64,000 nt of DNA, from assembly GCF_030409755.1 (NCBI RefSeq), contig NZ_JAUFQE010000002.1, positions 3,596,001 to 3,660,000 of the forward strand. Direction: 5' to 3'. Shown piece by piece: positions 292 through 26,876 of this stretch (its first letter is position 1; every line of letters starts with the position of its first letter). Position numbers and translations under genes: made by a program. The notes under the pieces were generated by a model. The model searched no databases and was not told where the DNA came from. It worked only from the letters and a program-made list of their open reading frames with translations. The DNA is from Vibrio lentus. Its GTDB lineage: Bacteria > Pseudomonadota > Gammaproteobacteria > Enterobacterales > Vibrionaceae.

Positions 292-823
292 AGATACATC
301 CTTCCAGTTAAATCTAGGCGCAACTTATTTGTATATAAAGTTAGCCTTGTCCTTTTATATTTATGGGTCTAAACCTGCCTATGCTGGCGGTTTGAATCCT
401 TTCCGTATCTCGCAGGAAAAGTATTGCGAGAAAAACAATCCTTAGTGATATCCGTTTATTTTTAGCCACAAACTAGTGGTTTATATAGGTGGGATATGGA
501 TATCACCGACTTATTAACAAGTTTCCGTTGTAAGTAAATACACAAAAATAGCCAATATGTGTAAGTATCCTACAATTTTGTCTAGGCGAATTGCAATGAA
601 AGTTGCCCCATGTAGACCATTTTTTTCGTTTTATTTTGAATTTAATGTCTAACAAATGTGCAACATTAGGCAGATAGAGCCGATTTTTTGCATGTTTATT
701 GATATTTGATAGGTTGCTCGCAAAAGGCCTTGAGTAAACTAATTGGTTGAATTTTGCAGGGATGTAATTTTTTTTCAGAAATAGACTGATATTCATTCTT
801 ATTTACTTGAGCACTTTCAAAAT
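292..823. other. gltB-yhcC divergent intergenic region
   Basis: This 532-base AT-rich region holds no convincing gene; a 97-codon minus-strand frame at 503-796 has no ribosome-binding site or recognisable protein. It contains an imperfect palindrome: GTGATATCC at 445-453 pairs with GGATATCAC at 498-506, with a smaller CCAC/GTGG pair inside. It lies about 150-215 bases upstream of gltB and could be a leader structure or regulator site. I cannot assign it. Confidence 0.5.
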
Positions 824-9294: not shown

Positions 9295-9372
9295 ATGCAG
9301 CACGTAAGCCACCTAGTAATGACCACCACCATTATTATTACCGACATTCACATTGTTGGGGCAGGCTGCTAA
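9295..9372 (+). CDS. thrL: thr operon leader peptide
   Basis: A 25-codon leader starting at ATG 9295 with a dense run of regulatory codons: Met-Thr-Thr-Thr-Ile-Ile-Ile-Thr, then Ile-His-Ile further on. Ribosome stalling at Thr or Ile codons when those charged tRNAs are scarce should prevent formation of the downstream terminator. The position just before an intrinsic terminator and thrA is the classical thrLABC design. It is too short to be found by ordinary gene calling. Confidence 0.93.
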   Translation: MQHVSHLVMTTTIIITDIHIVGAGC

Positions 9373-9384
9373 GTAACGGATTTT

Positions 9385-9426
9385 AAAAAAAAGGCCTGTA
9401 TCCAACAAGATACAGGCCTTTTTTTG
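9385..9426 (+). terminator. thr operon attenuator
   Basis: A GC-containing stem, GGCCTGTATC pairing with GATACAGGCC around a CAACAA loop, flanked by A-rich sequence and followed by seven or more T. It lies between thrL and thrA and fits a transcription attenuator. Confidence 0.93.
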
Positions 9427-15129: not shown

Positions 15130-15164
15130 TAAAAAAGCTTGGCCATTTCTGACCAAGCTTTTTA
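15130..15164. terminator. Bidirectional terminator serving native grcA
   Basis: Stem AAAAAGCTTGG paired with CCAAGCTTTTT, with A and T tracts on either side. It would end the leftward grcA transcript and the rightward reductase transcript. Confidence 0.85.
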
Positions 15165-15191: not shown

Positions 15192-15362
15192 TTATAGAGA
15201 CTCAGTGAACGTACGTGCGATAACGTCACGTTGCTGTTCAGTAGTTAGAGAGTTGAAACGTACAGCGTAACCCGATACACGGATAGTTAGCTGTGGGTAG
15301 TTCTCTGGGTGAGCAACTGCATCTTCTAGCGTTTCACGCTTAAGAACGTTAACGTTTAGGTG
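15192..15362 (-). pseudogene. grcA: Native grcA 3' fragment (glycyl-radical domain), separated by the island
   Basis: The frame encodes the last 55-57 residues of autonomous glycyl radical cofactor GrcA (YfiD), including the radical-glycine motif [11 protein letters not shown] and the C-terminus TFTESL. It lacks the first about 70 residues, which lie 11 kb away at 26499-26711. The break falls at the His-Leu codons inside GGQHLNVN. The reading frame stays open into the island for about 38 more codons and even has an ATG there, but no ribosome-binding site was seen, so expression is doubtful. GrcA replaces the damaged radical domain of pyruvate formate-lyase. Joining this piece to the right-hand fragment gives a complete 125-residue protein, showing that the gene was intact before insertion. 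Confidence 0.93.
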
Positions 15363-15377
15363 TAAAGTTGGGGGTTT
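15357..15377 (+). repeat. Left attachment site: core TAGGTGT plus inner arm
   Basis: The core shared with the right end is 15357-15363. The inner arm, starting at 15363, reads TAAAGTTGGGGGTT and is an imperfect inverted copy of the right arm. The octamer TAAAGTTG also occurs at 19203-19210, at 26323-26330 and, inverted, at 19173-19180, all in non-coding island DNA. Confidence 0.8.
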
Positions 15378-15864
15378 GAAATTCACGAAAAAAGTGGAGG
15401 TTTTCTCGAAAAAATGATGACTTTCTGTTTTTTGGAAGATAAAAAACAAAAAAAGAAATCTATAGTTGAGCAACCAGAGGTTGAATCCGACCTTAGAACT
15501 TTACATGTGATTACAGGTGTAAAAAGTGTAAGTGGAAATCTATTTCTGTGGAATTATGCCTCGAATCGAACATTTCAAGCTGGAAGCTTGGTTGAAAATG
15601 GATGGCTTCACCACTGTACGGTGGAGGTAGTTGCATGATCAACACGAGGCTGAATTATTTACACATAATTGGCGCAATATGACCGCTGCTATTCTTTCTG
15701 AATGTGAGTTCTCGTTTTTATGAGGAGAGCGCCAAACTCGGCAATCATGCGAGGTGAAGACGCTACTAATTTAAGATTTATTTTTCGATGTATTCAAGAC
15801 TAACTCACTTTGGTTGTCCTGAGACCCGTTAAGGGTAAGTTTTGATTTTCATTTGACCTATAGT
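15364..15864. other. Island left end, no convincing gene
   Basis: About 500 bases. A 74-codon plus-strand frame at 15414-15638 has GGAGG 13 bases before its ATG, too far for a confident call, and its protein is not recognised. TGATGACT at 15415-15422 is a partial match to the motif repeated near the carried grcA. Nothing else could be supported. Confidence 0.5.
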
Positions 15865-15963
15865 TTACTTACGCAGCTCTTTGTAAAGTTTTACGCAAGA
15901 AGTGACTAGCACAACGATTGCCGTTGCGACTCTTACCGCCAAATACACACTGGCTAGATCCAT
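15865..15963 (-). CDS. Possible 32-residue membrane micro-protein
   Basis: A minus-strand frame of 32 codons starting at ATG 15963, with AAGGA six bases upstream, a good ribosome-binding site. The peptide has a hydrophobic core (VATAIVVLVTSCV) and a basic tail (KLYKELRK). That architecture resembles small type I toxin peptides such as TisB. No antisense RNA can be proven from sequence. A palindrome, CCAACTTTGAAGTTGG, lies upstream at 16057-16072. It may instead be a chance frame; the RBS and composition are the only support. Confidence 0.4.
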   Translation of the reverse strand: MDLASVYLAVRVATAIVVLVTSCVKLYKELRK

Positions 15964-16157
15964 GCTGTATCCTTGTTCTGAGGACTAGCAGAGCCACTCA
16001 GTACAAGTCATTGTTATCTGTTGAGAGTTTTACCTCTGTTCGCGGATAATTGCATTCCAACTTTGAAGTTGGGGCGAAGCGACACATTTAAATGGTTAAG
16101 TCTAGTGCGTGTCAGTGCTATGAATTAATTGAATAAATAAGTGTCAGAGTTCTTTGC

Positions 16158-16937
16158 TCAAAGATGTAGTTCCTGCTTCGCGAGGTTTTTAACGTACAGC
16201 ATTTGTTGATCTATCTCGTTCGATAGCCTTTCATACTCTTCTAATATGTGCTCGTACCATTCCCACATAGAGAGGCTCCCTTGTTCAGAGTTTTCCCATG
16301 TATATGAGTTATCTTTGAATTGGTGTGAAACTAGTTCTTTCAGGAAGGAGCTTACCTTTGCTATATCAGGAGATAAGTATATAGACTGTAACTCTATGTT
16401 ATTGATGGATATATTCAGGTTTTTGATATACTGCTTCTTTTTTAGTTCCAGCTCTGAAACATACTGTTCAGTATTGTATTTTCGATTGAATTTTTCCTTT
16501 TCCAATTTAATTTCTTGGTCAGCAGTTTCATAATAGTCTTTGACTTGCTCTTCTGGGTACATGTCTTCATCAATGCCAGAATAGCCACAGTTGTTTATGA
16601 AGATTTCGTAGTATGAGCCATCTACGGCCATACGGTCAGAAACATACTCTTTCATATCTAGAAGGTTCTTCCATACTTGGTCGTATGAAGCTTTCTTTGC
16701 TGCCCATACCTGCTGCATTGCCCATGACTTGTTTGCTAAATCGTCACGTATGCTTTCCACAATATCTGTATTCTTAATTAGTCTCTCGCGTATATCTTCA
16801 TTTTCTTCTGCTAAAGCTCGTAGTTTCCCTTTTTCTGGGAGATACCCATTCTTAAGATATCCAGTATAAATCGCCAGAATGATAGCTTGTACCGCAAGAA
16901 CAATTAAACCTATGACTGAGAAATCGGAAAAATTCAT
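16158..16937 (-). CDS. Membrane-anchored coiled-coil protein, partner of the Mrr-type nuclease
   Basis: A 259-residue protein with one N-terminal membrane segment (about residues 7-27) followed by a long, charged, mostly helical cytoplasmic part with likely coiled coils at about 35-75 and 135-180. I do not recognise a family. The start is well supported by AAGGAG seven bases upstream. It follows the nuclease gene by 37 bases on the same strand, so the two form an operon. The region is AT-rich compared with the core chromosome. As cargo of a mobile island beside a restriction-type nuclease it may be a sensor or anchor in an anti-phage pair; this is inference from context. Confidence 0.75.
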   Translation of the reverse strand: MNFSDFSVIGLIVLAVQAIILAIYTGYLKNGYLPEKGKLRALAEENEDIRERLIKNTDIVESIRDDLANKSWAMQQVWAAKKASYDQVWKNLLDMKEYVSDRMAVDGSYYEIFINNCGYSGIDEDMYPEEQVKDYYETADQEIKLEKEKFNRKYNTEQYVSELELKKKQYIKNLNISINNIELQSIYLSPDIAKVSSFLKELVSHQFKDNSYTWENSEQGSLSMWEWYEHILEEYERLSNEIDQQMLYVKNLAKQELHL

Positions 16938-16974
16938 ATTATCTCCTTATTGTGAGTTCTGACAGGGCAGCTAA

Positions 16975-17841
16975 CTACTGCTCTTCTGCGAACAGGAGCG
17001 AATCGAATTCTTCAATCTGAGAGTCATGTAACAAGTAAACTTGTTGAGAGTCAGCTAACTGGCGTGCAGACTTGGTAAAGTCATTATTTGTTACTACTAG
17101 TGCGAGATCTTTTTCATAGTAATCTCTAGCGGAAGAAACTTCTTGAACAGCTTTGTTTCCTACAGGCTTTGAGTACATTTTGCACTGGACTACCATACTA
17201 ACGCCATATTTTTCAGCTAGTACATCTGCTCCTTGATCTCCTGAGCCGCTAGTAGCGTAAGAGTCCCAACCTAGCTCAGTAAGTCTTTGTGATATCAGTT
17301 TCTCATACTCATATGGTGTAATATCATCGTTATCTTCTTGGTAGTTATCTGTATCACTTGAGGTCTCTGCTGCATCCCAAAGCACGGAAAAGACAGCGCT
17401 ACTCATCCCTAATAGTAAGTCACTTAAGTCATCAGTAAATAAATAGATCTCACCGTCAAATGACTTAGCAAGTTCTTTGTAATAGTTTGGAGCTGATTGA
17501 TATACGTAGTCTTCAATGGAGTACCTTCTTTTTTTTACAAATTTATCAATTTCCTTGTCAAAATCATCTGTATTTTTATCTCCATACTCATCAACATATG
17601 TTAGCTGCCTTTGCTTTCTTAGTAGAGGTTCAACGTAGTTATTTTCGATAAGCCAATACTCAAGTATCGCGGAGTTAATGTGAACAAGAACTATTGATTT
17701 GAAATCATCCCCTTCCTTAGTTTTACTTATGTCAAAATCGTGCTGGTTGAATCTTGTCCAAAATCCCTCTCCAGAAGCGATATCTTTGTCTAATTGCGCC
17801 AAGATATTTTGTTTAGAAAACTTATCTTCAAATAGAGACAT
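16975..17841 (-). CDS. Mrr-type restriction endonuclease-like protein
   Basis: A 288-residue protein with an Mrr-like PD-(D/E)xK nuclease domain in its last about 100 residues. It shows the N-terminal helix YEYEKLISQRLTELGW, then GSGDQGADV with D206, and VVQCK with Q219 and K221, the D-x(12)-QxK pattern of Mrr_cat domains. The N-terminal about 175 residues are unrecognised and acidic near 155-175. I chose ATG 17841 because AAAAGG lies four bases upstream; an in-frame ATG at 17856 has no such site. It is first in a two-gene operon with the membrane coiled-coil protein. Mrr-domain nucleases often restrict foreign or modified DNA, so a defence role is likely but unproven. Confidence 0.83.
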   Translation of the reverse strand: MSLFEDKFSKQNILAQLDKDIASGEGFWTRFNQHDFDISKTKEGDDFKSIVLVHINSAILEYWLIENNYVEPLLRKQRQLTYVDEYGDKNTDDFDKEIDKFVKKRRYSIEDYVYQSAPNYYKELAKSFDGEIYLFTDDLSDLLLGMSSAVFSVLWDAAETSSDTDNYQEDNDDITPYEYEKLISQRLTELGWDSYATSGSGDQGADVLAEKYGVSMVVQCKMYSKPVGNKAVQEVSSARDYYEKDLALVVTNNDFTKSARQLADSQQVYLLHDSQIEEFDSLLFAEEQ

Positions 17842-18066
17842 AAATCCTTTTAGCATTTTTTGGTTTCTCTTCTTGCTGTATTATGTAAACAATATAATAT
17901 TATTCTAAAGGTTAGTCATGTGATCTTGTTCGCATGGTTGTTAGGGAAGGGGCTTTACTAACGAATTGATAGTAAAGATATTATGGGCTTTTTACTGGAC
18001 TCAGGAATGCATCTTTATAGAAAGGGTGATTCCTGTTTAACAGTGCTTTCCGAACATAGATTACTA

Positions 18067-18949
18067 GGGCGTGTTGATCTTTCGTGAGTGTTTTTTGAAC
18101 AGCATGGTAAAGAGTTATAATTTGCTTCGCCAAAAGTAAAACCATAACCAATACCATGCCAAGAACAATGCTAACTGATATTCGCTGGGAACTGCTACTC
18201 CAAGTTATGAAAAGTACGGGTCGTATTTACGATAAAACTGAACATCGAATGACATTTGAAGGAATACTTTATCGAATGAGAACAGGCATTCCTTGGCGGG
18301 ATCTGCCCTCTGAGTTCGGAGAGTGGAGTACCGTTTACAGACGATTTAATCTTTGGTCAAAGAAAGGGGTTTTAGATAAACTTTTCAAAAGCTTATCTAG
18401 CATGGCAGATTTTGAATGGGTCTTTCTTGATGGCTCTATAGTTCGAGCGCATCAGCATAGTACAGGTGCAGCGACTGAAAGCTCAGAGCAAATAGGAAAA
18501 AGTCGCGGGGGCAACTCAACCAAAATTCACTTAGCCGTGGATAGTGGTGGCCTGCCGATTTGCTTTGATTTATCAGAAGGACAACGCCACGATATAGTGC
18601 ATGCCGAAAGCTTAGTTGAGCAACTCGATGAAGTGAATACCATCGTTTGTGATAAAGGATATGACAGCGAACCTTTCCGCATTTTTGTTAAGGAACGTGG
18701 CGGAGAAACAGTAATTGCTAAACGCAATTACGGACAAGATATAGACAAAGACAGTATGGATTGGTGTCTATACAAGTATCGTCACTTGGTCGAAAATGCC
18801 TTTGGGAGAATTAAGCATTATCGAGCTATTTCAATTAGATATGACAAGCTAGAAAGGAATTATGCCAGCATGTTATCGCTGGCATTCATGTTAATGTGGT
18901 TACCGATGTATTGTTGAACGCGAAATGTACAGCAAAGATCAACACGCCC
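18067..18949 (+). mobile_element. IS5-family insertion sequence inside the island
   Basis: About 883 bp with perfect 16-bp terminal inverted repeats, GGGCGTGTTGATCTTT on the left and its complement on the right. Both sides are flanked by TA, or CTAG if the end G is counted in the target. One transposase gene fills it. Removing the element and one target copy joins short flanking reading frames on the minus strand, suggesting that it landed in or beside a small gene. Confidence 0.88.
18156..18917 (+). CDS. IS5-family transposase
   Basis: A 253-residue DDE transposase encoded in a single frame. The N-terminal stretch RMRTGIPWRDLPSEFGEWST is typical of the family. Catalytic residues appear as Asp in FLDGSIVRAHQH, Asp in VCDKGYDSE, and Glu in LVENAFGRIKHYRAI. 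It seems complete and possibly active, since both inverted repeats are intact. The ATG at 18156 gives the usual start (MPRTMLTDIRWE); the upstream AACCATAACC has no strong ribosome-binding site. Confidence 0.92.
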   Translation: MPRTMLTDIRWELLLQVMKSTGRIYDKTEHRMTFEGILYRMRTGIPWRDLPSEFGEWSTVYRRFNLWSKKGVLDKLFKSLSSMADFEWVFLDGSIVRAHQHSTGAATESSEQIGKSRGGNSTKIHLAVDSGGLPICFDLSEGQRHDIVHAESLVEQLDEVNTIVCDKGYDSEPFRIFVKERGGETVIAKRNYGQDIDKDSMDWCLYKYRHLVENAFGRIKHYRAISIRYDKLERNYASMLSLAFMLMWLPMYC

Positions 18950-18993
18950 TAGCTATTTCACTTTTTTCTTCTACATCTTCCATCGTAACTCCC

Positions 18994-19160
18994 TTAGCCA
19001 AAGGTAAAGCCAAGAGCTACGGCTGTGTGTGAGATATCAACCATTGCAGCTAATTTACGTGGAGACACCTTACCCCCTCTGTTTCCAGTTGGTTATCGCA
19101 CCTAGAGAACAGTAGTGTTTGTCTATCTTGTGCTGCTGTTACGCAAGCAGTCATCCATTT
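18994..19160 (-). pseudogene. Decayed Cro-like regulator remnant
   Basis: Read leftward, different frames give pieces of a small Cro/YdaS-type repressor: ITNWKQRGG, broken by a stop, then VSPRKLAAMVDISHTAVALG in another frame. In Cro-like proteins these pieces are contiguous (turn, recognition helix, then SP-K). The mixture of frames indicates a frameshifted relic between the IS and the recombinase promoter region. It could be a former island repressor. The assignment rests on short motifs only. Confidence 0.35.
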
Positions 19161-19172
19161 TCGTGTTCCTTA

Positions 19173-19234
19173 CAACTTTACACATAAGTAAAATTTAATG
19201 CGTAAAGTTGCTTATCAAAAGTAGGTCATCAAAA
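19173..19234 (+). promoter_or_regulatory. Operator-like region upstream of the recombinase operon
   Basis: An inverted repeat AACTTTACaCAT (19174-19185) and ATGcGTAAAGTT (19199-19210), separated by 13 bases, includes two copies of the TAAAGTTG octamer found at the left end. It is followed by AGGTCATCAAAA (19223-19234), an exact complement of the motif repeated near the carried grcA. It lies about 100 bases before gmtY and probably contains promoter and regulator sites. Confidence 0.55.
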
Positions 19235-19330
19235 TGTGACCAAAGTAGACTGTTTGCCTTTCTTTTCTGTTGCTGCCTTGTGGTTTTTAAATGCTTGGAT
19301 GTAATATTGAGGTTGGTGGTTTTCTTGGAA

Positions 19331-20743
19331 ATGATGACTATGCATGAAGCTGAATCTTATGGTGAGTGCAAGATTAGACTTGGTTACTTTGAAGTTTGTC
19401 TTTATCCCAACCTTGTGGTGAAACAAGAAGATGGCGATGAATATCCAAATTTCAGATTGACAAAGTCAAGAAAAAAAGTGCCTTTGCTAGTCAGGGGAGA
19501 TGGTCATTTAGACTTTCCTGCAAACCTTTTTCTTAGGGATCGAGCGAAGACAACAAAATCCATTGCGTCAGATGCATATGCTCTCCTGATGTTCGCTAGA
19601 TGGCTCGATGGTGAGGGCAAGTCGTATAGGGATGTATTCAAAGACCCTGCTGATGGTGTAGTGCATCAGTTTGGTGAAGTGCTTAAAGCTCTGGTGAAAA
19701 ACAATGCATACCAGAAAGGTCATTTATCACTAAGCACAGCTAAAACATATGCTAGATCTATTGCTCGTTATTACAAGTTTTTGAATAAAGAGGCGATTTT
19801 GAAGTGGAGTTCTTCCCGTAAGCCTTTGGAATTCAAGACTACACGTATACCAAGACAAAAAAGAGATGATCTTGGTGAAAATGAGATGCTTAGTCATATA
19901 ACGAAGAACACCATGATCACAGTCCAGACCAACAGCTTGATGTCTGGCTTTCCCAAGGATATTGATATACCGAGGCATTTGTCTTTAAAGCCGATCACGC
20001 AAGAAGATCAAGATATTCTCTACCGATACCTTAACAGCAAGTTAGATCGTGCTTCTGGAAAAGAAAAGCAATTTTATCAGGCAGAAACCCAACAGCTATG
20101 GGTTGAACTTGGCATCAAAGGGGGCTTAAGAATCAATGAAATTGCCACATTGAATGAGAGTGCGATTTACCAACCTATGCATAATACTGAAACATGCTCT
20201 TTGGTTCTAGATGTCAAGGAAGGAGTTGAAACTAAGAACAGCAAAACCCGCACAACAGAGATACCTACGGAGCTAATGGAACGGCTCTTTGAGTACAAAT
20301 CATCTGCAATACGAACACAGGCTCTTAAGGATGCAAATGAGAAGGATTCTGAAAATTTAGAACACGACCAGTCAGAGCAGAATATTAATAAGTCAGATGA
20401 TGATATATCTAATGATGATCCGCGATTATTCATTAGCTCTTACTCAGCAGGCAATTATAGCAAGAAAACAATCCAGAAATTTTGGTCGGGAATCAGAGCT
20501 GAAATAAGGATGGAACACCCCAGTTGGTACTACAGATTTCATGACACTAGATCAACGTTTGCCACAGATTTTCTGATCAGAACAGCCTCAAAAAGCAAAT
20601 TACCCTACAGCTTCCATAGAGGAGAGCTGCAATCGCTCATGGGGCATTCTAAACATACTGAAACTGAAGCTTACGTTAGCTTTTTAGAGGATAAAGAAAC
20701 GTTTAGGCACATAGCGTCACGACACAACAAATTGGCTGCATAG
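19331..20743 (+). CDS. gmtY: Tyrosine recombinase, GmtY type
   Basis: A 470-residue tyrosine recombinase with a complete catalytic set: R267 in GGLRINEI, H404 and R407 in HDTRSTFAT, H439 in LMGHSKHTETEAY and nucleophile Y448. The N-terminal half should be the core-binding region. Three ATGs lie within nine bases (19331, 19334, 19340); GGAA at 19327-19330 fits 19340 best, so the true start may be three codons later. An open frame upstream to 19208 is hydrophobic and unlike recombinases. It is the first of four plus-strand genes, with ten bases to the next. The combination with a large zinc-cysteine protein, a second integrase and a small coiled-coil protein matches the Gamma-Mobile-Trio cassette as I recall it. 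The symbol is by recognition, not by search. Confidence 0.8.
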   Translation: MMTMHEAESYGECKIRLGYFEVCLYPNLVVKQEDGDEYPNFRLTKSRKKVPLLVRGDGHLDFPANLFLRDRAKTTKSIASDAYALLMFARWLDGEGKSYRDVFKDPADGVVHQFGEVLKALVKNNAYQKGHLSLSTAKTYARSIARYYKFLNKEAILKWSSSRKPLEFKTTRIPRQKRDDLGENEMLSHITKNTMITVQTNSLMSGFPKDIDIPRHLSLKPITQEDQDILYRYLNSKLDRASGKEKQFYQAETQQLWVELGIKGGLRINEIATLNESAIYQPMHNTETCSLVLDVKEGVETKNSKTRTTEIPTELMERLFEYKSSAIRTQALKDANEKDSENLEHDQSEQNINKSDDDISNDDPRLFISSYSAGNYSKKTIQKFWSGIRAEIRMEHPSWYYRFHDTRSTFATDFLIRTASKSKLPYSFHRGELQSLMGHSKHTETEAYVSFLEDKETFRHIASRHNKLAA

Positions 20744-20753
20744 GAGAAGGCAA

Positions 20754-23159
20754 ATGGCTAAAAGTCCAATACTTGATGTTCTTGGCACTGAACTAACAGC
20801 ACCTAAACCGATATCAATACCTGACAAAGTTTCATATCAAAATAGAGGCAATACCAGAACGCTAGTTTTAACTGAACTGGATGTGTATAAGCCTACCAGT
20901 ATCAAATATAAATATATTGAAAAGCTCAAAATTCAGATATTGGATAACATTAGAGCTGAGCAATACAGCCAAGCTAAGAACTTATATTTGGCAGCTAGGC
21001 ATTATTTACAGTATCTGGACAAAAAGGATATCGACCCTCTCTCCAAAGCTGGTTATCGAGCTTACTTTTCGCGAAAAGGCTTCCTTTGGACGCTAGTTGA
21101 GTATGGCAGCAGAACTAAAGCACATAGGTTCATGTATGAAGATGGTGAACCGCTAGGTATTTCTGAAAAAACGGCAGCAGGTAAAAAGCGGTTGTTAAAC
21201 GTTTTTTTCAAGTCAGTGGGGCTGGATATATTTTCTTGGGATAAGGGATTAAAACAATTCTCTCTAGCTGGATTACCAAAGAAGCCTACTTTCCCCTACT
21301 CTCCTAGAGAACATACCGAATCAATTCAAAAGCTTAATGAAATGTTCTTTATTATCGCTCCTTTGCTTATATCTGAGTTTAAAGGTGATACTACGTTCTC
21401 AAATTCAACAGAATTCGCGCATAAATTAGTAATAGAGTCTCTTGGGAAGACTAATACACCTTCTGGTTTATCAATGCTTTGCCTTCGAAAAAAAACACCA
21501 AGGGCGTTGTTTTCTTTCTGTATGGAGATTGCTTATTACATATTTTGTCATTACACCTCTTTCAACGATTCAGTGGTTGCTAGAGTATGTCGTCCAATCA
21601 GCATTACAAAATCAGGCGTAGAGGGCAAGTCATCAAAGTTTGCGAGAATTACAGCCTATAAAGGGCGTGGCAATAAAGTTGTGCAGTCCATGCTCAGTAA
21701 TGAAATCGCCAACCATGAAGGTGAACTGGAAGCCAGTATTGACAAGCGAAATGGCATAGCTTTTTTACTAATGCTTCAAGAACTATCTGCCACCTTTAAT
21801 CCTGATGAAAAAGGTTTGCTTATATATGATATTGATGAAGATGGAGAAGTTGTAGAGCTAGCTATTCGTTCAGATCATGATGAAGTTGCGAGGGAGCTTG
21901 AGCTGTTCGCTGATATTAGGGTGTCACTTATAGACCGTTTGTCTGAAGCATTTACTGAATTAGTGAAGCATAACAGGGTGCAAACATATAAGAAAACTCT
22001 GGCTGATGACCACTACGTGATCAAACATGAGACCAAGTATTATAAGCCAAGCACTAACCAGAGAACTCTAGCAATTCATCGTATAGCAACAGCTATCTTA
22101 CAGTGCATGACGAGTGATACATTGCGAACAGCTACAATCCCACTAACGTACTCTGATAAAGATGAAAATAATATCGTTACAGTTACCACTAAAGATACTG
22201 ATGGCAAACAGATAACATTTAAAGTGCCAGTGCAGCATATTGACGCTGTCAAATTGGTGGAAGAACTGGCGTTTGAAAGGAACTCTCCATACCGCTTTAC
22301 GCGAAACCCCAAAGGCATTAATCAATATACTGGAGAACATATTGACCTTACGGGACAAGAAGAAAGCCAGCGGCCTATAGAGCCAGCCAAAAATCCAGCA
22401 TATTTATTACCCAAAGGACGGAAACAAGAAACCACGCCTTACAATATGCACCCTGTTGATAGCGAGCTGCTGAGCATGTTGGGCATTAGCACTTCGTATT
22501 TTTTTATATCACTTAACTCTAGACGTATCAGGTTAACTAATGCTGACAATGAGTATCTGCAAGGTAATGAGTATTCAGCTCGCTTAATGCTTCAGAACTC
22601 CAAAGAGATATTTGAATCAAGGTATGTTAACGGACACCCTGAACGCAACAATGAAATCACTGCTCAGTCTATACAAATCCTAGAAGAAATTGCTAAGGGC
22701 GCGGATTTAGAGCTGGCAAAAGATATTGTCAGGAAAGACTGGAAAGTGGATGTATTAACATTTGACGAGTATTTGGCGAAAGGCAAACCCAAAACAAACC
22801 CCAACGGAACACATTGCAATGGTAAACCAGACTTTGCAGGCAAAGAGCATAAATTGGCAAAGGCTCAAGCAAAGAAAATGGAGGTATCTGAGGGGGGGGA
22901 TATAGCCTGTTTCCAGTATGACAAATGTTATGAATGTGGCTCGTGTAAGCTAGTAGAGCATCCATATCAGATCTATAAGTATATTTCTTTTTTGGATTCA
23001 TTGACTGACACTATTGACAATCATCCAGCAAATGTCGATGAACTAGAAGAACGACTGGATGGACTTGAGAGGGTTTTACAGGAAAATATTAGTGAAGAAG
23101 TGATTGAAGAAGCACTAAAAATCATGGAAGAGAAAGGCAGGTATTTCCTGTTTGCTTGA
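20754..23159 (+). CDS. gmtZ: Large integrase-like protein, GmtZ / VPA1269 type
   Basis: An 801-residue protein, second in the recombination operon, with a strong AGGAGAAGG site. It is recombinase-like but degenerate. A C-terminal segment, LNSRRIRLTNADNEYL followed by KEIFESRYVNG, resembles the HxxR and Tyr boxes but lacks the two histidines. The last about 130 residues contain cysteines in HCNGKPDF and CYECGSCKLVEHPY, a likely zinc-binding knuckle, then a helical tail. I assign it to the VPA1269-type GmtZ family from order, size and this cysteine-rich tail. It may hold DNA or partner proteins rather than cut. The exact role is not known to me. Confidence 0.75.
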   Translation: MAKSPILDVLGTELTAPKPISIPDKVSYQNRGNTRTLVLTELDVYKPTSIKYKYIEKLKIQILDNIRAEQYSQAKNLYLAARHYLQYLDKKDIDPLSKAGYRAYFSRKGFLWTLVEYGSRTKAHRFMYEDGEPLGISEKTAAGKKRLLNVFFKSVGLDIFSWDKGLKQFSLAGLPKKPTFPYSPREHTESIQKLNEMFFIIAPLLISEFKGDTTFSNSTEFAHKLVIESLGKTNTPSGLSMLCLRKKTPRALFSFCMEIAYYIFCHYTSFNDSVVARVCRPISITKSGVEGKSSKFARITAYKGRGNKVVQSMLSNEIANHEGELEASIDKRNGIAFLLMLQELSATFNPDEKGLLIYDIDEDGEVVELAIRSDHDEVARELELFADIRVSLIDRLSEAFTELVKHNRVQTYKKTLADDHYVIKHETKYYKPSTNQRTLAIHRIATAILQCMTSDTLRTATIPLTYSDKDENNIVTVTTKDTDGKQITFKVPVQHIDAVKLVEELAFERNSPYRFTRNPKGINQYTGEHIDLTGQEESQRPIEPAKNPAYLLPKGRKQETTPYNMHPVDSELLSMLGISTSYFFISLNSRRIRLTNADNEYLQGNEYSARLMLQNSKEIFESRYVNGHPERNNEITAQSIQILEEIAKGADLELAKDIVRKDWKVDVLTFDEYLAKGKPKTNPNGTHCNGKPDFAGKEHKLAKAQAKKMEVSEGGDIACFQYDKCYECGSCKLVEHPYQIYKYISFLDSLTDTIDNHPANVDELEERLDGLERVLQENISEEVIEEALKIMEEKGRYFLFA

Positions 23160-23198
23160 CTTTTACAAGACTCAAATGCTGTTAGGAAGGTATTTACA

Positions 23199-25400
23199 GT
23201 GAAAAACATCAAAAGTAAAAGCAATGCTAGAACCGTATCTTACGAAGAGTTTCTTAGCTACTTTGAAGAAGACCACCTAACTGATGTTCTCTTACCTGCT
23301 GTACAAAAAGGGGATTGGAAGTCTCTGGAAAAAATGCCTGTACTCAAAGAGAAAGGTACAGGTAAGCAAGTTATGTATTCCTGCAACTCATGGTCAGTCT
23401 CAGAGTTTGGCGATGGTTTTCAATCAGAAAGGTTGCTTTTTAATCACAGTACAAAAAAATCATTTGATGGTTACATTTTGCCAACTTGTTTCAGGAACCA
23501 AATCAAATGCTTTGCTGCTTGGGAACTTTTTTCAGACACCGTTCCTTATGGATATCAGAACATTTCTGATACGGTTGGTAAGCTTACTCATATTGCCAAA
23601 ACAGCAATTGATATTGGTCTGGAAGGGTTTCATGAACTCGATATTGATGCGATTTTCAAGATGATTAATGAGCAGGGCTTTACGGTTAACGGTAAAGGAA
23701 ACAAAACACTGTCAGCCATAAATAGACTTGTTCAAGCTTCTGCGCACATATCCATTGCTATACCGATCCATGAAAAGCTAAAGCCAGAAACATTTAATAA
23801 AGTTGTTACCGAATCCGAGCAGTATCCTGTTATCCCACACAGGCAGTTTCTCGAAATGGTAAATACTTCCTCTGATGAAATGCAGAATGCTTTTAAGCAC
23901 ATAGAAGCTCTAAGTGAAGCAACGGAATGTTATCTCGCGGAAACTGATTCGATTAAAGCCGATATAATTCATCGGCTAAGAACTGGAACGCTAAGTCTAA
24001 CTACGTGTTTAGCTCCAAGTTATAAGGATATGGCATTAAACATACAGAAGTCCTTTTTAGAAGCAGGTATTGCAATAGTTGATAACGAAAAAAATAGTAA
24101 CGATAAATGGCTTTCTGTGTGGAATGGCTACAAGATTCAGTACAGTTTTGATTGTGTAAAAAAGCACTACCCTGAGTTCAAGGTGGTGATAGGAAGTAGG
24201 ATCATAAAGGGAAGAAGCCAGTTCAATGATTACTTACGTGAACTTCAAGGACACTGTTGTTTTTTGTGCTGCTCATTAAGTGGTATGCGAATTGGAGAAC
24301 TATGGGGAGTATCTACAGAATATGGCGCTCAAGACCATATAAAAGTAAAAGGTGGGACAATTTACATGTTTACCACCAAGCAAGAGAAAATTACATTTGA
24401 TAGTCAGACCAAAGATGACATATATGTTACCAGCAGAACAGGGTTTCGAGCTTATCAGGTGCTTAATTCGATCCATAAGCCATTTAGGAAAAGGTTTAAA
24501 GAGGGGGAGTATTCATACTTTTTTGCTGCTCTAAGCGAAGTCTATCATCCTCAACCTATTGGTAAAGTTGGTTTTGGTAAGGTTGTAAACTCAGCAATCA
24601 ATACAATATATACAGACCTGCTCACGTTAAATTTGAATGACATAGATTTTTTGAAAGCTTCAGAACCTGAGAAGACGTTCAACGTTGGTGATAAATTCCA
24701 TTTTACTAACCACCAGTGCAGACGTTCTTTTGCTTATTATCTTATTGGTTATGAGTTAATGGATTACCCTCAATTGAAGCAGCAGCTTAGTCATGTTTCG
24801 ATGGCAATGACAAAATGGTATGCAAGAAATGCATGGTCATTTAAAAAGATTTACACCGAAGTTCAAAACATGCGAAATGCTAAATGCTCAAAATTGATTG
24901 CAAGGCTTTACTCGAAGCTTGCGAATAAAGAGCGTCTAGCAGGTGGTCTTGGTACTGGTTTGGTTCGAGATACCATGAAAGACAGAGATTACTTTTCTAA
25001 AAGAGAAAACCAAAGAAAGCTAGACGCAACCTATTGGGAAGACCAAATAAAAACAGGAAAAGTCCACATACACGCTATAGGACAAGGCATGTATTGCACA
25101 AAAAGAACCTGTGCAATGAGGGCATCCATTGACCTTTCTGAATGTGTTGGTTGCGCATGGGATATCATAGAAGATGCCTTAACAGCAGAATCATTGCGAA
25201 TGACAGCCATGAGAAACATCATATTGCTATTGGATAGCAATGAACTGAACAGAAGTAGTGCTACCAAGTACCTTCTTGATATTCGCTCAGCGGAAAAAAT
25301 ACTTCAGGATCTTGATTTTGAGCATGAAGTTTACGAGGTTCCAGATGAGCTGTTGGCGATAATTGATGGTAACGAGAACGTGGAGGTGGTTAATGTCTAA
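23199..25400 (+). CDS. Second catalytically complete tyrosine recombinase of the island
   Basis: A 733-residue protein starting at GTG 23199 with AGGAAGG upstream. Catalytic residues are R364 in SGMRIGELWG, H505 and R508 in NHQCRRSFAYYL, H532 in QLSHVSMAMTKWY and Y541. The C-terminus has cysteines in GMYCTKRTCAMR and ECVGCAWD, possibly a zinc site, which parallels the protein encoded just upstream. Its stop overlaps the start of the next gene by eight bases. In the cassette order it corresponds to the extra integrase between gmtZ and gmtX. Two active recombinases in one element recall the Tn554 and recombinase-in-trio designs. Confidence 0.85.
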   Translation: MKNIKSKSNARTVSYEEFLSYFEEDHLTDVLLPAVQKGDWKSLEKMPVLKEKGTGKQVMYSCNSWSVSEFGDGFQSERLLFNHSTKKSFDGYILPTCFRNQIKCFAAWELFSDTVPYGYQNISDTVGKLTHIAKTAIDIGLEGFHELDIDAIFKMINEQGFTVNGKGNKTLSAINRLVQASAHISIAIPIHEKLKPETFNKVVTESEQYPVIPHRQFLEMVNTSSDEMQNAFKHIEALSEATECYLAETDSIKADIIHRLRTGTLSLTTCLAPSYKDMALNIQKSFLEAGIAIVDNEKNSNDKWLSVWNGYKIQYSFDCVKKHYPEFKVVIGSRIIKGRSQFNDYLRELQGHCCFLCCSLSGMRIGELWGVSTEYGAQDHIKVKGGTIYMFTTKQEKITFDSQTKDDIYVTSRTGFRAYQVLNSIHKPFRKRFKEGEYSYFFAALSEVYHPQPIGKVGFGKVVNSAINTIYTDLLTLNLNDIDFLKASEPEKTFNVGDKFHFTNHQCRRSFAYYLIGYELMDYPQLKQQLSHVSMAMTKWYARNAWSFKKIYTEVQNMRNAKCSKLIARLYSKLANKERLAGGLGTGLVRDTMKDRDYFSKRENQRKLDATYWEDQIKTGKVHIHAIGQGMYCTKRTCAMRASIDLSECVGCAWDIIEDALTAESLRMTAMRNIILLLDSNELNRSSATKYLLDIRSAEKILQDLDFEHEVYEVPDELLAIIDGNENVEVVNV

Positions 25401-25875
25401 TGCTTTGGAAAAATATATCAATGCGATAGATGCTATTCGCTATGGTACATATACATCAAAGACGTTACTCAACAGAAAGACCGTTAAATTGAACTACAAT
25501 ACAGTAGAAATTGAAGCGGGAGTAACACGAGGTGCATTAAAAAAGCACCCAAACATCATGGAGAAGATTGATCTTATCAATGCGGGAAAAGATGGTGAGC
25601 AACAGGAACGCCAAGATGAGGTTGATAAAAGAGACGAAAAGTACAGCGAGTTAAGAGAACAAGTTGAACTGTTAAACAATAAGTTGGAAAGTCGAGACCA
25701 GTTGCTTGAGGAACAAGAAGATACTCTCAAGGGCTTGCAAGAGAATGAATTTCATCTCATATCGGCACTATTCGATTGCGTTCCCTTCAATGAGCGCGAT
25801 AAGTTGTTTGAGAATGCTGATAAGGAAGAGAGCGGTGGCAAGATTGTTCGGTTTGGGCAACCAGAAGAGAGATAG
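25393..25875 (+). CDS. gmtX: Small coiled-coil protein, GmtX / VPA1267 type
   Basis: A 160-residue protein starting at ATG 25393 inside the end of the integrase gene, with GGAGG six bases upstream. The N-terminal part (about residues 25-55, VEIEAGVTRGALKKHPNIM) looks like a helix-turn-helix. A charged coiled coil follows at about 65-115, with repeated Glu, Lys and Gln. The layout resembles TnpC of Tn554 and the small third partner of GMT cassettes. It could help orient recombination or act as the regulator binding the repeated motif; neither is shown. It is the last gene before a strong terminator. Confidence 0.72.
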   Translation: MSNALEKYINAIDAIRYGTYTSKTLLNRKTVKLNYNTVEIEAGVTRGALKKHPNIMEKIDLINAGKDGEQQERQDEVDKRDEKYSELREQVELLNNKLESRDQLLEEQEDTLKGLQENEFHLISALFDCVPFNERDKLFENADKEESGGKIVRFGQPEER

Positions 25876-25884
25876 CTAATGTAT

Positions 25885-25917
25885 GAAAAAGCCACAGATT
25901 TTAACCGTGGCTTTTTA
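25885..25917. terminator. Bidirectional terminator between gmtX and the carried grcA
   Basis: Stem AAAGCCAC paired with GTGGCTTT with A and T tracts on the two sides. It serves the rightward recombinase operon and the leftward carried grcA. Confidence 0.88.
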
Positions 25918-25931
25918 CTATGTGCTAAATC

Positions 25932-26309
25932 TTAAAGAGATTCTGTAAATGTACGAGCAATAACGTCACGCTGCTGCTCTGGAGTCAGAGAGTTAAAGCG
26001 TACAGCATAACCTGATACACGGATAGTTAGCTGAGGGTAGTTCTCAGGGTGTGCTACAGCGTCCTCTAGAGTCTCTCTTTTCAAGACATTGACGTTCAGG
26101 TGCTGACCACCTTCGATCCTCGGAGCAGTTTCGATTGCCACTTCACGGCTTTCGAATTCACCCAGTGCATCGACAGCAACAACTTGGTCTGCTTCGTAAC
26201 CTGAAGCTGCTGCTACGCAACGTGCTTCGTTCTTCTCTGTGTCTAGCAGCCAGATTGAATTGATTAGTTCGTCATTTGCTGCTTTTGAAATTTGAATACC
26301 TTGGATCAT
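25932..26309 (-). CDS. grcA: Complete grcA carried by the island (rescue copy)
   Basis: A full-length 125-residue GrcA with the radical-glycine motif [11 protein letters not shown]. Over the first 71 residues I count 14 differences from the native N-terminal fragment; over the last 55 there is one. It is therefore a diverged orthologue rather than a recent duplicate of the host gene. It keeps the host gene's orientation, 178 bases inside the island's right core, so the native promoter could read into it. AAGGT stands seven bases before the ATG. At the attachment core it has CAGGTGC instead of TAGGTGT, with the protein unchanged. It should supply the pyruvate formate-lyase repair function lost from the split gene. 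Confidence 0.95.
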
Positions 26310-26336
26310 AATATTTACCTTCTAAAGTTGACTTAA

Positions 26337-26426
26337 TTTTGATGACTTTTTTATTCTTGGAGGTCATCATTTTTACTTTTTTGATGACCTATTTAAAAGT
26401 GTGCTCTAAAATCATTTTGATGACCT
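26337..26426 (-). promoter_or_regulatory. Cluster of TTTTGATGACCT operators upstream of the carried grcA
   Basis: Exact TTTTGATGACCT lies at 26379-26390 and 26415-26426, a variant TTTTGATGACT at 26337-26347, and an inverted half AGGTCATCA at 26361-26369. The inverted half forms a 9-bp palindrome with 26382-26390. The same 12-mer occurs upstream of gmtY at 19223-19234, in the same orientation relative to its gene. This suggests one island regulator acting on both promoters. Confidence 0.65.
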
Positions 26427-26484
26427 GATTACTTATTGTTTTTACAGGTAAAAATGCCTTTAGGTCAGACTTTTTAAAGGAGTT

Positions 26485-26505
26485 AACTACCAACTATATA
26501 GGTGT
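26485..26505 (+). repeat. Right attachment site: inner arm plus core TAGGTGT
   Basis: The core is 26499-26505. The adjoining arm, ending at 26498, read on the minus strand is TATAGTTGGTAGTT, an imperfect inverted copy of the left arm. Confidence 0.8.
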
Positions 26506-26711
26506 TGACCACCTTCGATGCGTGGTGCTGCTTCGATAGCAACTTCACGGCTTTCGTATTCGCCTAGGTCTGCAGCTGAGATAACTTGGTCAGCTTCGAA
26601 ACCTGAAGTAGCAACAACACAACGAGCTTCATTCTTCTCGCTATCTAGTAGCCAGATTGAGTTTAGTAGGTCATCGTTTGCTGCTTTAGTAATTTGAATA
26701 CCTTGGATCAT
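26487..26711 (-). pseudogene. grcA: Native grcA 5' fragment cut by the island
   Basis: The frame encodes the first 71 residues of native GrcA ([13 protein letters not shown] to IEGGQHL), then Tyr-Ser-Trp and a stop contributed by island DNA, so 74 residues in all. It lacks the glycyl-radical domain and should not be functional as a cofactor. The native ATG, ribosome-binding site (GGAGAT) and upstream FNR-type promoter are intact, so this truncated frame is probably still transcribed and the transcript may continue into the carried grcA. Confidence 0.93.
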
Positions 26712-26809: not shown

Positions 26810-26876
26810 TTGATTTAAGTCAAAAAACAACCAAAAACCATATTTTTACAAAGGTGATTATATTGAGGTAAATCAA
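26810..26876 (-). promoter_or_regulatory. Tandem FNR-like boxes of the native grcA promoter
   Basis: TTGATTTAAGTCAA (26810-26823) and TTGAGGTAAATCAA (26863-26876) each match TTGATNNNNATCAA with one mismatch. Their centres are 53 bp apart. I recall E. coli yfiD having FNR sites at -40.5 and -93.5, the same spacing, so anaerobic activation of grcA is likely here. A TATATT-like -10 lies nearby at the expected place. Confidence 0.7.

Follow-up and report, generated by a model that had tools for sequence, protein, structure and literature searches.

An SE-type element in Vibrio lentus that splits grcA, carries a complete grcA and recurs in pflB

The interrupted grcA gene and a second copy of its element

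The window considered here, a stretch of 64,000 nucleotides of Vibrio lentus DNA (contig NZ_JAUFQE010000002.1, positions 3,596,001 to 3,660,000), holds a grcA gene on the minus strand that is interrupted by an element of 11.1 kb. The break lies at the His-Leu codons of a Gly-Gly-Gln-His-Leu stretch. To the right, the 5′ part of the native gene (26487-26711, minus strand) retains codons 1-71, followed by three element-encoded residues (YSW) and a stop codon. To the left, the 3′ part (15192-15362, minus strand) encodes the glycyl-radical domain from HLNVNV... to the stop codon. With the 7-bp spacer copies at both ends counted in full, the element extends from 15357 to 26505; its body measures 11,135 bp (15364-26498). 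In gene orientation both spacers read ACACCTA: attL (15357-15363) adjoins the terminal motif C, and attR (26499-26505) adjoins motif C′. A preliminary description, made from the sequence alone, had placed the split at these codons and the limits at these positions, and the present analysis confirms the split and finds the limits exact, with both spacer copies included.

A complete grcA (25932-26309, minus strand) lies within the element, just inside its right end. It has the same orientation as the interrupted gene and starts 177 bp behind the truncated native frame. Its product of 125 residues matches the NCBIfam model TIGR04365 over the full length (221.5 bits, cutoff 170), including the RVSGYAVRF loop, which bears out the earlier claim of a complete gene in this orientation; residues 1-125 also align with the structure of E. 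coli YfiD (6owr). The native and carried proteins have 110 of 125 residues in common, in agreement with the 14 of 71 and 1 of 55 differences counted previously, while their genes differ at 78 of 375 bases.

A search of the same genome (G000) with the carried GrcA gives five matches, namely two carried copies, two pieces of native grcA and one further radical-domain piece. The locus of the fifth match is pflB (L006, on G000:C2, outside the window), where the element together with the split gene spans L006 1913-15331. There, a truncated frame for pyruvate formate-lyase, or PFL (L006 1913-4036; Pfam PFL-like, 715.1 bits), which runs to EGGQHL and then YSW, is followed 177 bp behind by the carried grcA, by the rest of the element and by the PFL radical domain (within L006 15050-15331); an activase gene resembling pflA, named by eye, lies further on at L006 16701-17441. 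A PFL search of G000 returns this split pflB as its single match, cut at the same Gly-Gly-Gln-His-Leu site as grcA. The two copies of the element are identical over 11,159 bp (window 15358-26516), and the junction string of G000 occurs twice in that genome and in none of the others in a genus set of 227 genomes, which includes the window's own. Chance is excluded, because the identical element at the homologous codons of pflB is accompanied by relatives at the same grcA codons in two other genomes (G044 and G046). At both sites of G000, a frame started by TTG runs from the interior of the element into the orphaned glycyl-radical domain (window 15192-15473; L006 15050-15331) and could, in principle, be expressed.

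Long identical repeats are prone to misjoining, and the assembly might thus contain one island only, with one of the two sites chimeric. This is extremely improbable, as both sites have site-specific flanks, the left spacer at pflB retains the base of that gene, and neither an intact pflB nor an intact native grcA was found in the genome, where the GrcA query gave no further radical domain.

Class, relatives and movement of the element

The core genes of the element all lie on the plus strand. They comprise intA (19208-20743), encoding a tyrosine recombinase whose true start is probably at about residue 42 of the open reading frame; tfp (20754-23159); intB (23199-25400), also encoding a tyrosine recombinase; and srap (25363-25875), encoding an auxiliary recombination protein. 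All four products match those of SE-6283 of plasmid pSEA1, with the same gene order: IntA at 30% identity (2e-40), Tfp at 25.8% over 90% in a tblastn comparison with pSEA1 (5e-55), IntB at 28% (9e-95) and Srap at 24% (5e-07, from a single comparison). The catalytic residues R-HxxR-H-Y, which in SEs mark IntA and IntB but not Tfp, are aligned in IntA and invariant in IntB. An operon intA-tfp-intB, with srap, at one end of the element is characteristic of the strand-biased circularizing integrative elements, or SEs, and this arrangement is found here. SEs are reported to form circles in a copy-out-like manner, to leave no empty site and to be frequent in Vibrio (PMC10214605). Two identical copies in one genome fit the copy-out mode. 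The ends carry short sequences resembling AAAGTTGG and ATAGTTGG, noted by eye and offset by 2 bases, where SEs have imperfect inverted repeats C/C′ of 13-19 bp. Whereas the core of an SE lies directly at an end, here three cargo genes stand between attL and intA. These are an open reading frame without a family match (16158-16937, minus strand), a gene for a protein with an Mrr-type nuclease domain, which is a possible defence gene (16975-17856, minus strand), and a gene for an IS5-family transposase (18156-18917, plus strand; NF033580, 261.4 bits, cutoff 110).

The preliminary description had called the element a GMT-type island, a label that finds no support: the GmtY model NF040693 is unmatched by the core proteins of the window at an E value of 1. 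In the NCBIfam scan, no match to GmtX or GmtZ models appeared, and whether that library holds such models was not checked. GMT islands, attributed by other papers to Mahata (2024), are said to be mobile, rich in defence genes and common in Vibrio. The relative of the element in G044 does match GmtY and the VPA1267 family, which is linked to GMT islands, but weakly and below cutoff. Its IntA reaches only 15.9 bits against a GmtY cutoff of 340, and two distant relatives examined with NCBIfam did not satisfy the GmtY model either. The element resembles GInt islands as well, which have three recombinase-like genes and a small fourth gene and are site-specific (PMC5385486); two near-identical GInts occur at the ends of duplicated ribonucleotide reductase genes in P. 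aeruginosa PA_D16 (PMC5385486). In contrast to the present case, the available parts of that paper describe no gene rescue for GInts. These islands (ginABCD) are set apart from SEs by sequence in PMC10214605, and the separation made here follows that publication.

Matches to Tfp at an E value of 1e-3 occur in 54 of the 227 genus genomes, and among the strong matches only G000, G044 and G046 exceed 40% identity; in a family set, the Tfp alignment was matched at 1e-40 in 26 of 329 genomes. The Tfp proteins of G044 and G046 are 43% identical to that of G000 in the search and 44% in the alignment. In both genomes, grcA is split at the same codons, and a complete carried GrcA, 86% identical to that of G000, is encoded next to attR in the same orientation as in G000, whereas pflB is intact (frames of 763 codons). 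The two elements are identical to each other over 492 bases at their left ends and 141 at their right ends, while their Tfp proteins are not identical. Outside these genomes, protein clusters of V. aestuarianus include a Tfp that is 86% identical and a GrcA (P0009) that is 95% identical to the carried one; in this GrcA, the Tyr of the conserved stretch PENYPQL is replaced by Ser. No Tfp relative was confirmed by either of two scans of contigs from named genomes, a set that possibly leaves out near relatives of the window's genome. No duplicated target gene appeared in a self-comparison of 7 stretches (8.8-20 kb) of SE relatives with 29-34% Tfp identity, which is a weak test: L039 gave its grcA pair, while the known positive L037 (which ends short of attR) was also negative.

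As for other features of these genomes, the cargo of the G044 element (L037 3815-12521) is defence-like, with PADLOC matches to BovA, SIR2, HerA and PDC-S32 and an AbiJ N-terminal domain. The grcA of G086 looks broken, being present as two overlapping pieces (G086:C44:245309-245682), and in G105 and G145 the search matched no grcA of full length; GrcA may thus not be universal in the genus.

The spacers bear on the direction of movement. SEs are reported to have 6 bp of the target at attL and 6 bp of the donor at attR (PMC10214605), a rule by which the attL spacer at grcA would be derived from the host and the attR spacer from the donor. In gene orientation, attL and attR read ACACCTA and ACACCTA at grcA in G000, ACACCTT and ACACCTA in the pflB copy, ACACCTA and ACATCTT in G046, and ACACCTA and ACATTTG in G044. 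Thus, the two differ in the last three cases, as expected of an SE. Here, the spacer is read as 7 bp: the adjoining 141 bases of the element are identical in G044 and G046, and yet their attR spacers diverge at bases 5 and 7. The intact pflB of G044 and G046 reads CAACACCTT. Since the left spacer of the pflB copy matches pflB and the right one has the bases of grcA, the SE rule points to a grcA donor, which is known here only through the attR bases, and hence to movement from grcA to pflB. In addition, the attR spacer of G044, ACATTTG (L038; G044:C1 at about 674550), equals the site in the carried grcA of the G046 element, and that of G046, ACATCTT, equals the site of a second PFL gene in G179 (L110). 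Spacers may, in this sense, be a record of former insertion sites.

Expression, origin and codons of the carried grcA

The segment between attR and the carried grcA (26310-26480, minus strand) contains repeated GTCATCA motifs, seen by eye. On the grcA strand, no sigma-70-type site was listed between attR and the carried start codon, which is weak evidence; a sigma-70-type match is present in the promoter region of native grcA at 26807-26780. A hairpin predicted between attR and the carried start codon lacks a T run behind it on the grcA strand. The carried gene is probably read from the host gene promoter by read-through. Downstream, a terminator-like hairpin lies between the carried grcA and srap (25886-25916, minus strand; -15.9 kcal/mol, with 0 of 200 shuffles as good), which is absent from the list of the scan that gave the sigma-70-type match. 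The terminator-like hairpin of native grcA (15131-15164, minus strand; -24.1 kcal/mol, 0 of 200 shuffles as good) is now severed from its promoter. Two sites that resemble FNR boxes (26810-26823 and 26863-26876, with one mismatch each) are located 5′ of native grcA, and the same motif scan gave no such box near the pflB promoter. Elsewhere in the window, Rfam motifs mark a Thr operon leader (9308-9426, plus strand) and gltS (346-450, minus strand).

In a tree of DNA sequences, the host-native grcA genes group with the genes of G015, G029, G017 and G179, apart from the carried genes, which fall in a clade together with three native genes. Without the columns of the integration site, the carried genes require two changes in the tree, and a single clade for them is not rejected in either tree (p-AU, from the approximately unbiased test, 0.546 and 0.198). 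In a protein tree, the carried GrcA of G000 clusters with a V. aestuarianus protein and one other database protein (94/96). The preliminary description had held that the carried grcA arrived with the island, and its foreignness to the host stands, since the trees place it away from the host-native group. Two grcA copies in a relative without the island had been named as evidence to the contrary; in G015, which has one of the grcA genes nearest to the native gene of the host, a single full-length grcA is present, with 2 matches among those listed. The ratio of nonsynonymous to synonymous substitution (dN/dS, by NG86) is 0.052-0.070 among carried genes and 0.049-0.096 between these and the host native genes, values that are rough, as dS among carried genes ranges from 0.37 to 1.93 and, at 1.4-1.9 for the G000 pairs, is near saturation. 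These low ratios suggest that the carried genes are under purifying selection.

Any island can pick up one ordinary gene, and the carried grcA might be a passenger whose match to the target is a coincidence or a by-product of imprecise excision. Such an origin is very improbable. Two element lineages, with Tfp proteins only 43-44% identical, both carry grcA beside attR in the same orientation; the gene is full-length, differs from that of the host and shows low dN/dS; none of the three elements at grcA lacks a carried grcA; and SE-6283 does likewise with bcp.

Codons 67-75 of the carried gene, in the region of the integration site, are unusual in a synonymous way. Codon typicality was defined, for each codon, as the fraction of native genes with the same codon for the same residue, in a native set of 44 genes (41 fetched, mostly best matches among 224 genomes with a match, and 3 joined host genes). 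In windows of 10 codons, the lowest z is -4.92 for the carried gene of G000 (codons 74-83), -3.90 for that of G046 (62-71) and -3.50 for that of G044 (62-71). In the joint profile of 116 windows, the ten with the lowest values begin between codons 61 and 70, and every one of them overlaps the site codons. The difference between the site and the rest of the gene, taken for 44 genes (41 native, 3 carried), is lowest in G044 and G000, while G046 is sixth, tied at the printed precision. In the 27-bp core, the carried genes differ from the site of their own host at 5 (G000), 7 (G044) and 6 (G046) positions, all silent, whereas other native genes differ from those same host sites at 0-5, 0-6 and 0-5. 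Thus, the carried sites reach or exceed the limits of the variation among native genes, and they also stand out within their own genes.

It is likely, judging from this codon pattern, that the silent changes shield the rescue copy from its own element. Alternatively, a foreign origin or a weaker codon bias of the carried genes could produce unusual site codons with no role in self-protection. Their typicality over the whole gene is below that of native genes (mean z of -1.11 in G000, -0.77 in G046 and -0.70 in G044), and in G046 the codons of the right half of the site are ordinary. Nevertheless, the deepest joint deficit falls at the site, where G044 and G000 rank lowest and G046 sixth in the site-minus-rest comparison, so that this alternative is unlikely.

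PFL in two pieces, precedents and meaning

GrcA, the autonomous glycyl radical cofactor, or YfiD, is known as a spare part that restores PFL after cleavage by oxygen in E. coli (PMC8683613). In that work, PFL cut after residue 733 gave, with YfiD, 15.9 µM radical, compared with 17.2 µM for intact PFL, while PFL cut after residue 695 (tPFL) gave 32-fold less radical with YfiD than the 733 cut and showed no binding in isothermal titration calorimetry. The activated tPFL:YfiD complex has a turnover like that of the wild type, and with YfiD in fivefold excess activation rises fourfold (PMC8683613). According to an alignment, the cut in pflB corresponds to E. coli residue 705, between 695 and 733, and the PFL retained here is about 10 residues longer than tPFL. 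That the carried GrcA supplies the missing radical domain to the truncated PFL in trans is a somewhat doubtful possibility, and the E. coli biochemistry suggests that such a function would be weak.

The chances are about even that the rescue of grcA is real and the pflB copy a collateral hit that abolishes PFL activity, with GrcA useless there. The identical copies indicate a recent insertion, in which no selection is visible; in E. coli, activation of tPFL (1-695) together with YfiD is poor (PMC8683613); and pflB is intact in G044 and G046. By contrast, the turnover of activated tPFL:YfiD, the gain in activation from a YfiD excess, the extra residues of the retained PFL and the position of the carried grcA, 177 bp behind the truncated pflB, all speak against this reading.

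There are precedents for an integrative element that brings a copy of the gene that it breaks. SE-6283 (Tn6283, Vibrio alfacsensis) sits in bcp and carries a bcp homolog (PMC5991714, PMC9345347); according to a figure legend, all of its five locations except the one on pSEA1 are within the bcp gene and carry bcp (PMC9345347). The present element is similar to SE-6283 in its core, made up of four homologs in unchanged order, its conserved-gene target with a carried homolog, its spacer exchange and its several copies per genome (PMC10214605). Unlike SE-6283, it targets grcA and also pflB, its carried gene is opposite to the core genes and its core proteins are only 24-30% identical. Furthermore, one cargo gene faces two targets, and the rescue protein is nearly identical to that of the host in the radical domain, so that the site differs by silent changes. 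Another precedent is RME, to which PMC5991714 compares SE-6283. It lies in recA of V. cholerae S24 and brings a divergent complete recA that is functional against UV in E. coli (PMC4405046). Both RME and the present element are islands in a conserved gene with a divergent complete copy, and the published argument for a harmless insertion is the same (PMC4405046). RME, however, is 32.8 kb long and has 9-bp inverted repeats, with both orientations and an empty site reported (PMC4405046). At least 23 of the 227 genus genomes, such as G039 and G114, have a Bcp of a distinct lineage, 85-94% identical to that of SE-6283, while the other matches listed reach at most 80%. Fifteen of these also match Tfp, 12 of them at an E value of 2e-32 or better, and in all 12 bcp and tfp are within 5 kb on one contig.

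A comparable logic is reportedly used in engineered TARE gene drives, in which the target is broken and a rescuing copy is supplied. The rescue copies in TARE-type drives are recoded. These are man-made nuclease systems in animals, whereas the pattern described here is natural and based on recombinases. Rescue by cargo is the best reading of the carried grcA, as the preliminary description proposed; the design, left open there as possibly new, is already known from SE-6283 in bcp and RME in recA. Among the papers listed in the literature searches and in the main text of PMC10214605, no report was found of grcA or pflB as SE targets, of silent recoding or of one cargo gene facing two targets; for rescue of a target, RME was the only case among the papers listed.

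Taken as a whole, the observations are, with high confidence, best explained by an SE-type element with cargo able to replace the broken grcA, which was later copied to pflB. On insertion, grcA is severed between the region for the N-terminal part and that for the radical domain. Transcription from the host promoter would then probably reach the complete foreign grcA at the right end of the element and stop at its own predicted terminator-like hairpin, while the silent changes around the integration site would prevent that gene from serving as a target. A copy would subsequently move from grcA to pflB by the copy-out mode of SEs, leaving both sites occupied, and the carried GrcA might there provide truncated PFL with its radical domain in trans. 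The most complete version, that is, a natural recoded-rescue SE that attacks a glycyl-radical site common to two anaerobic pyruvate metabolism genes, protects its rescue gene there by synonymous recoding, replaces GrcA at grcA and makes a two-piece PFL at pflB, is rather unlikely.

Several observations pull in the other direction from this explanation. At the codon level, the carried gene of G046 is unusual on the left half of the site only (z of about 0 on the right half), the lowest window of that of G000 (74-83) is mostly beyond the site, the site-codon window of the site-minus-rest comparison was picked post hoc (the sliding-window scan was not) and the sample consists of three carried genes, two of them close kin. 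With regard to origin, a single source of the carried genes appears neither shown nor rejected in the trees, and the protein tree, unlike the DNA tree, places those of G044 and G046 on a long branch inside the host-native GrcA clade (99/94). The FNR-like matches in the window are at chance level, as 47 of 100 shuffles had as many or more. Should the spacer be 6 bp long, the length published for other SEs, it would not reveal the direction of movement. Finally, the identical copies indicate that the pflB insertion is recent and thus unable to show that PFL is still active, and with a cut equivalent to residue 705 the rescue of PFL may fail.

Few integrative elements are known that break a conserved gene and replace it, and the present one extends the list by a further target. 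It also suggests that, where conservation of the protein precludes changes to it, such an element may spare the rescue copy that it carries through silent recoding. Moreover, as GrcA is a natural spare part of PFL and no other PFL gene was seen here, the split pflB offers a natural experiment on whether an entire central enzyme can function in two parts.

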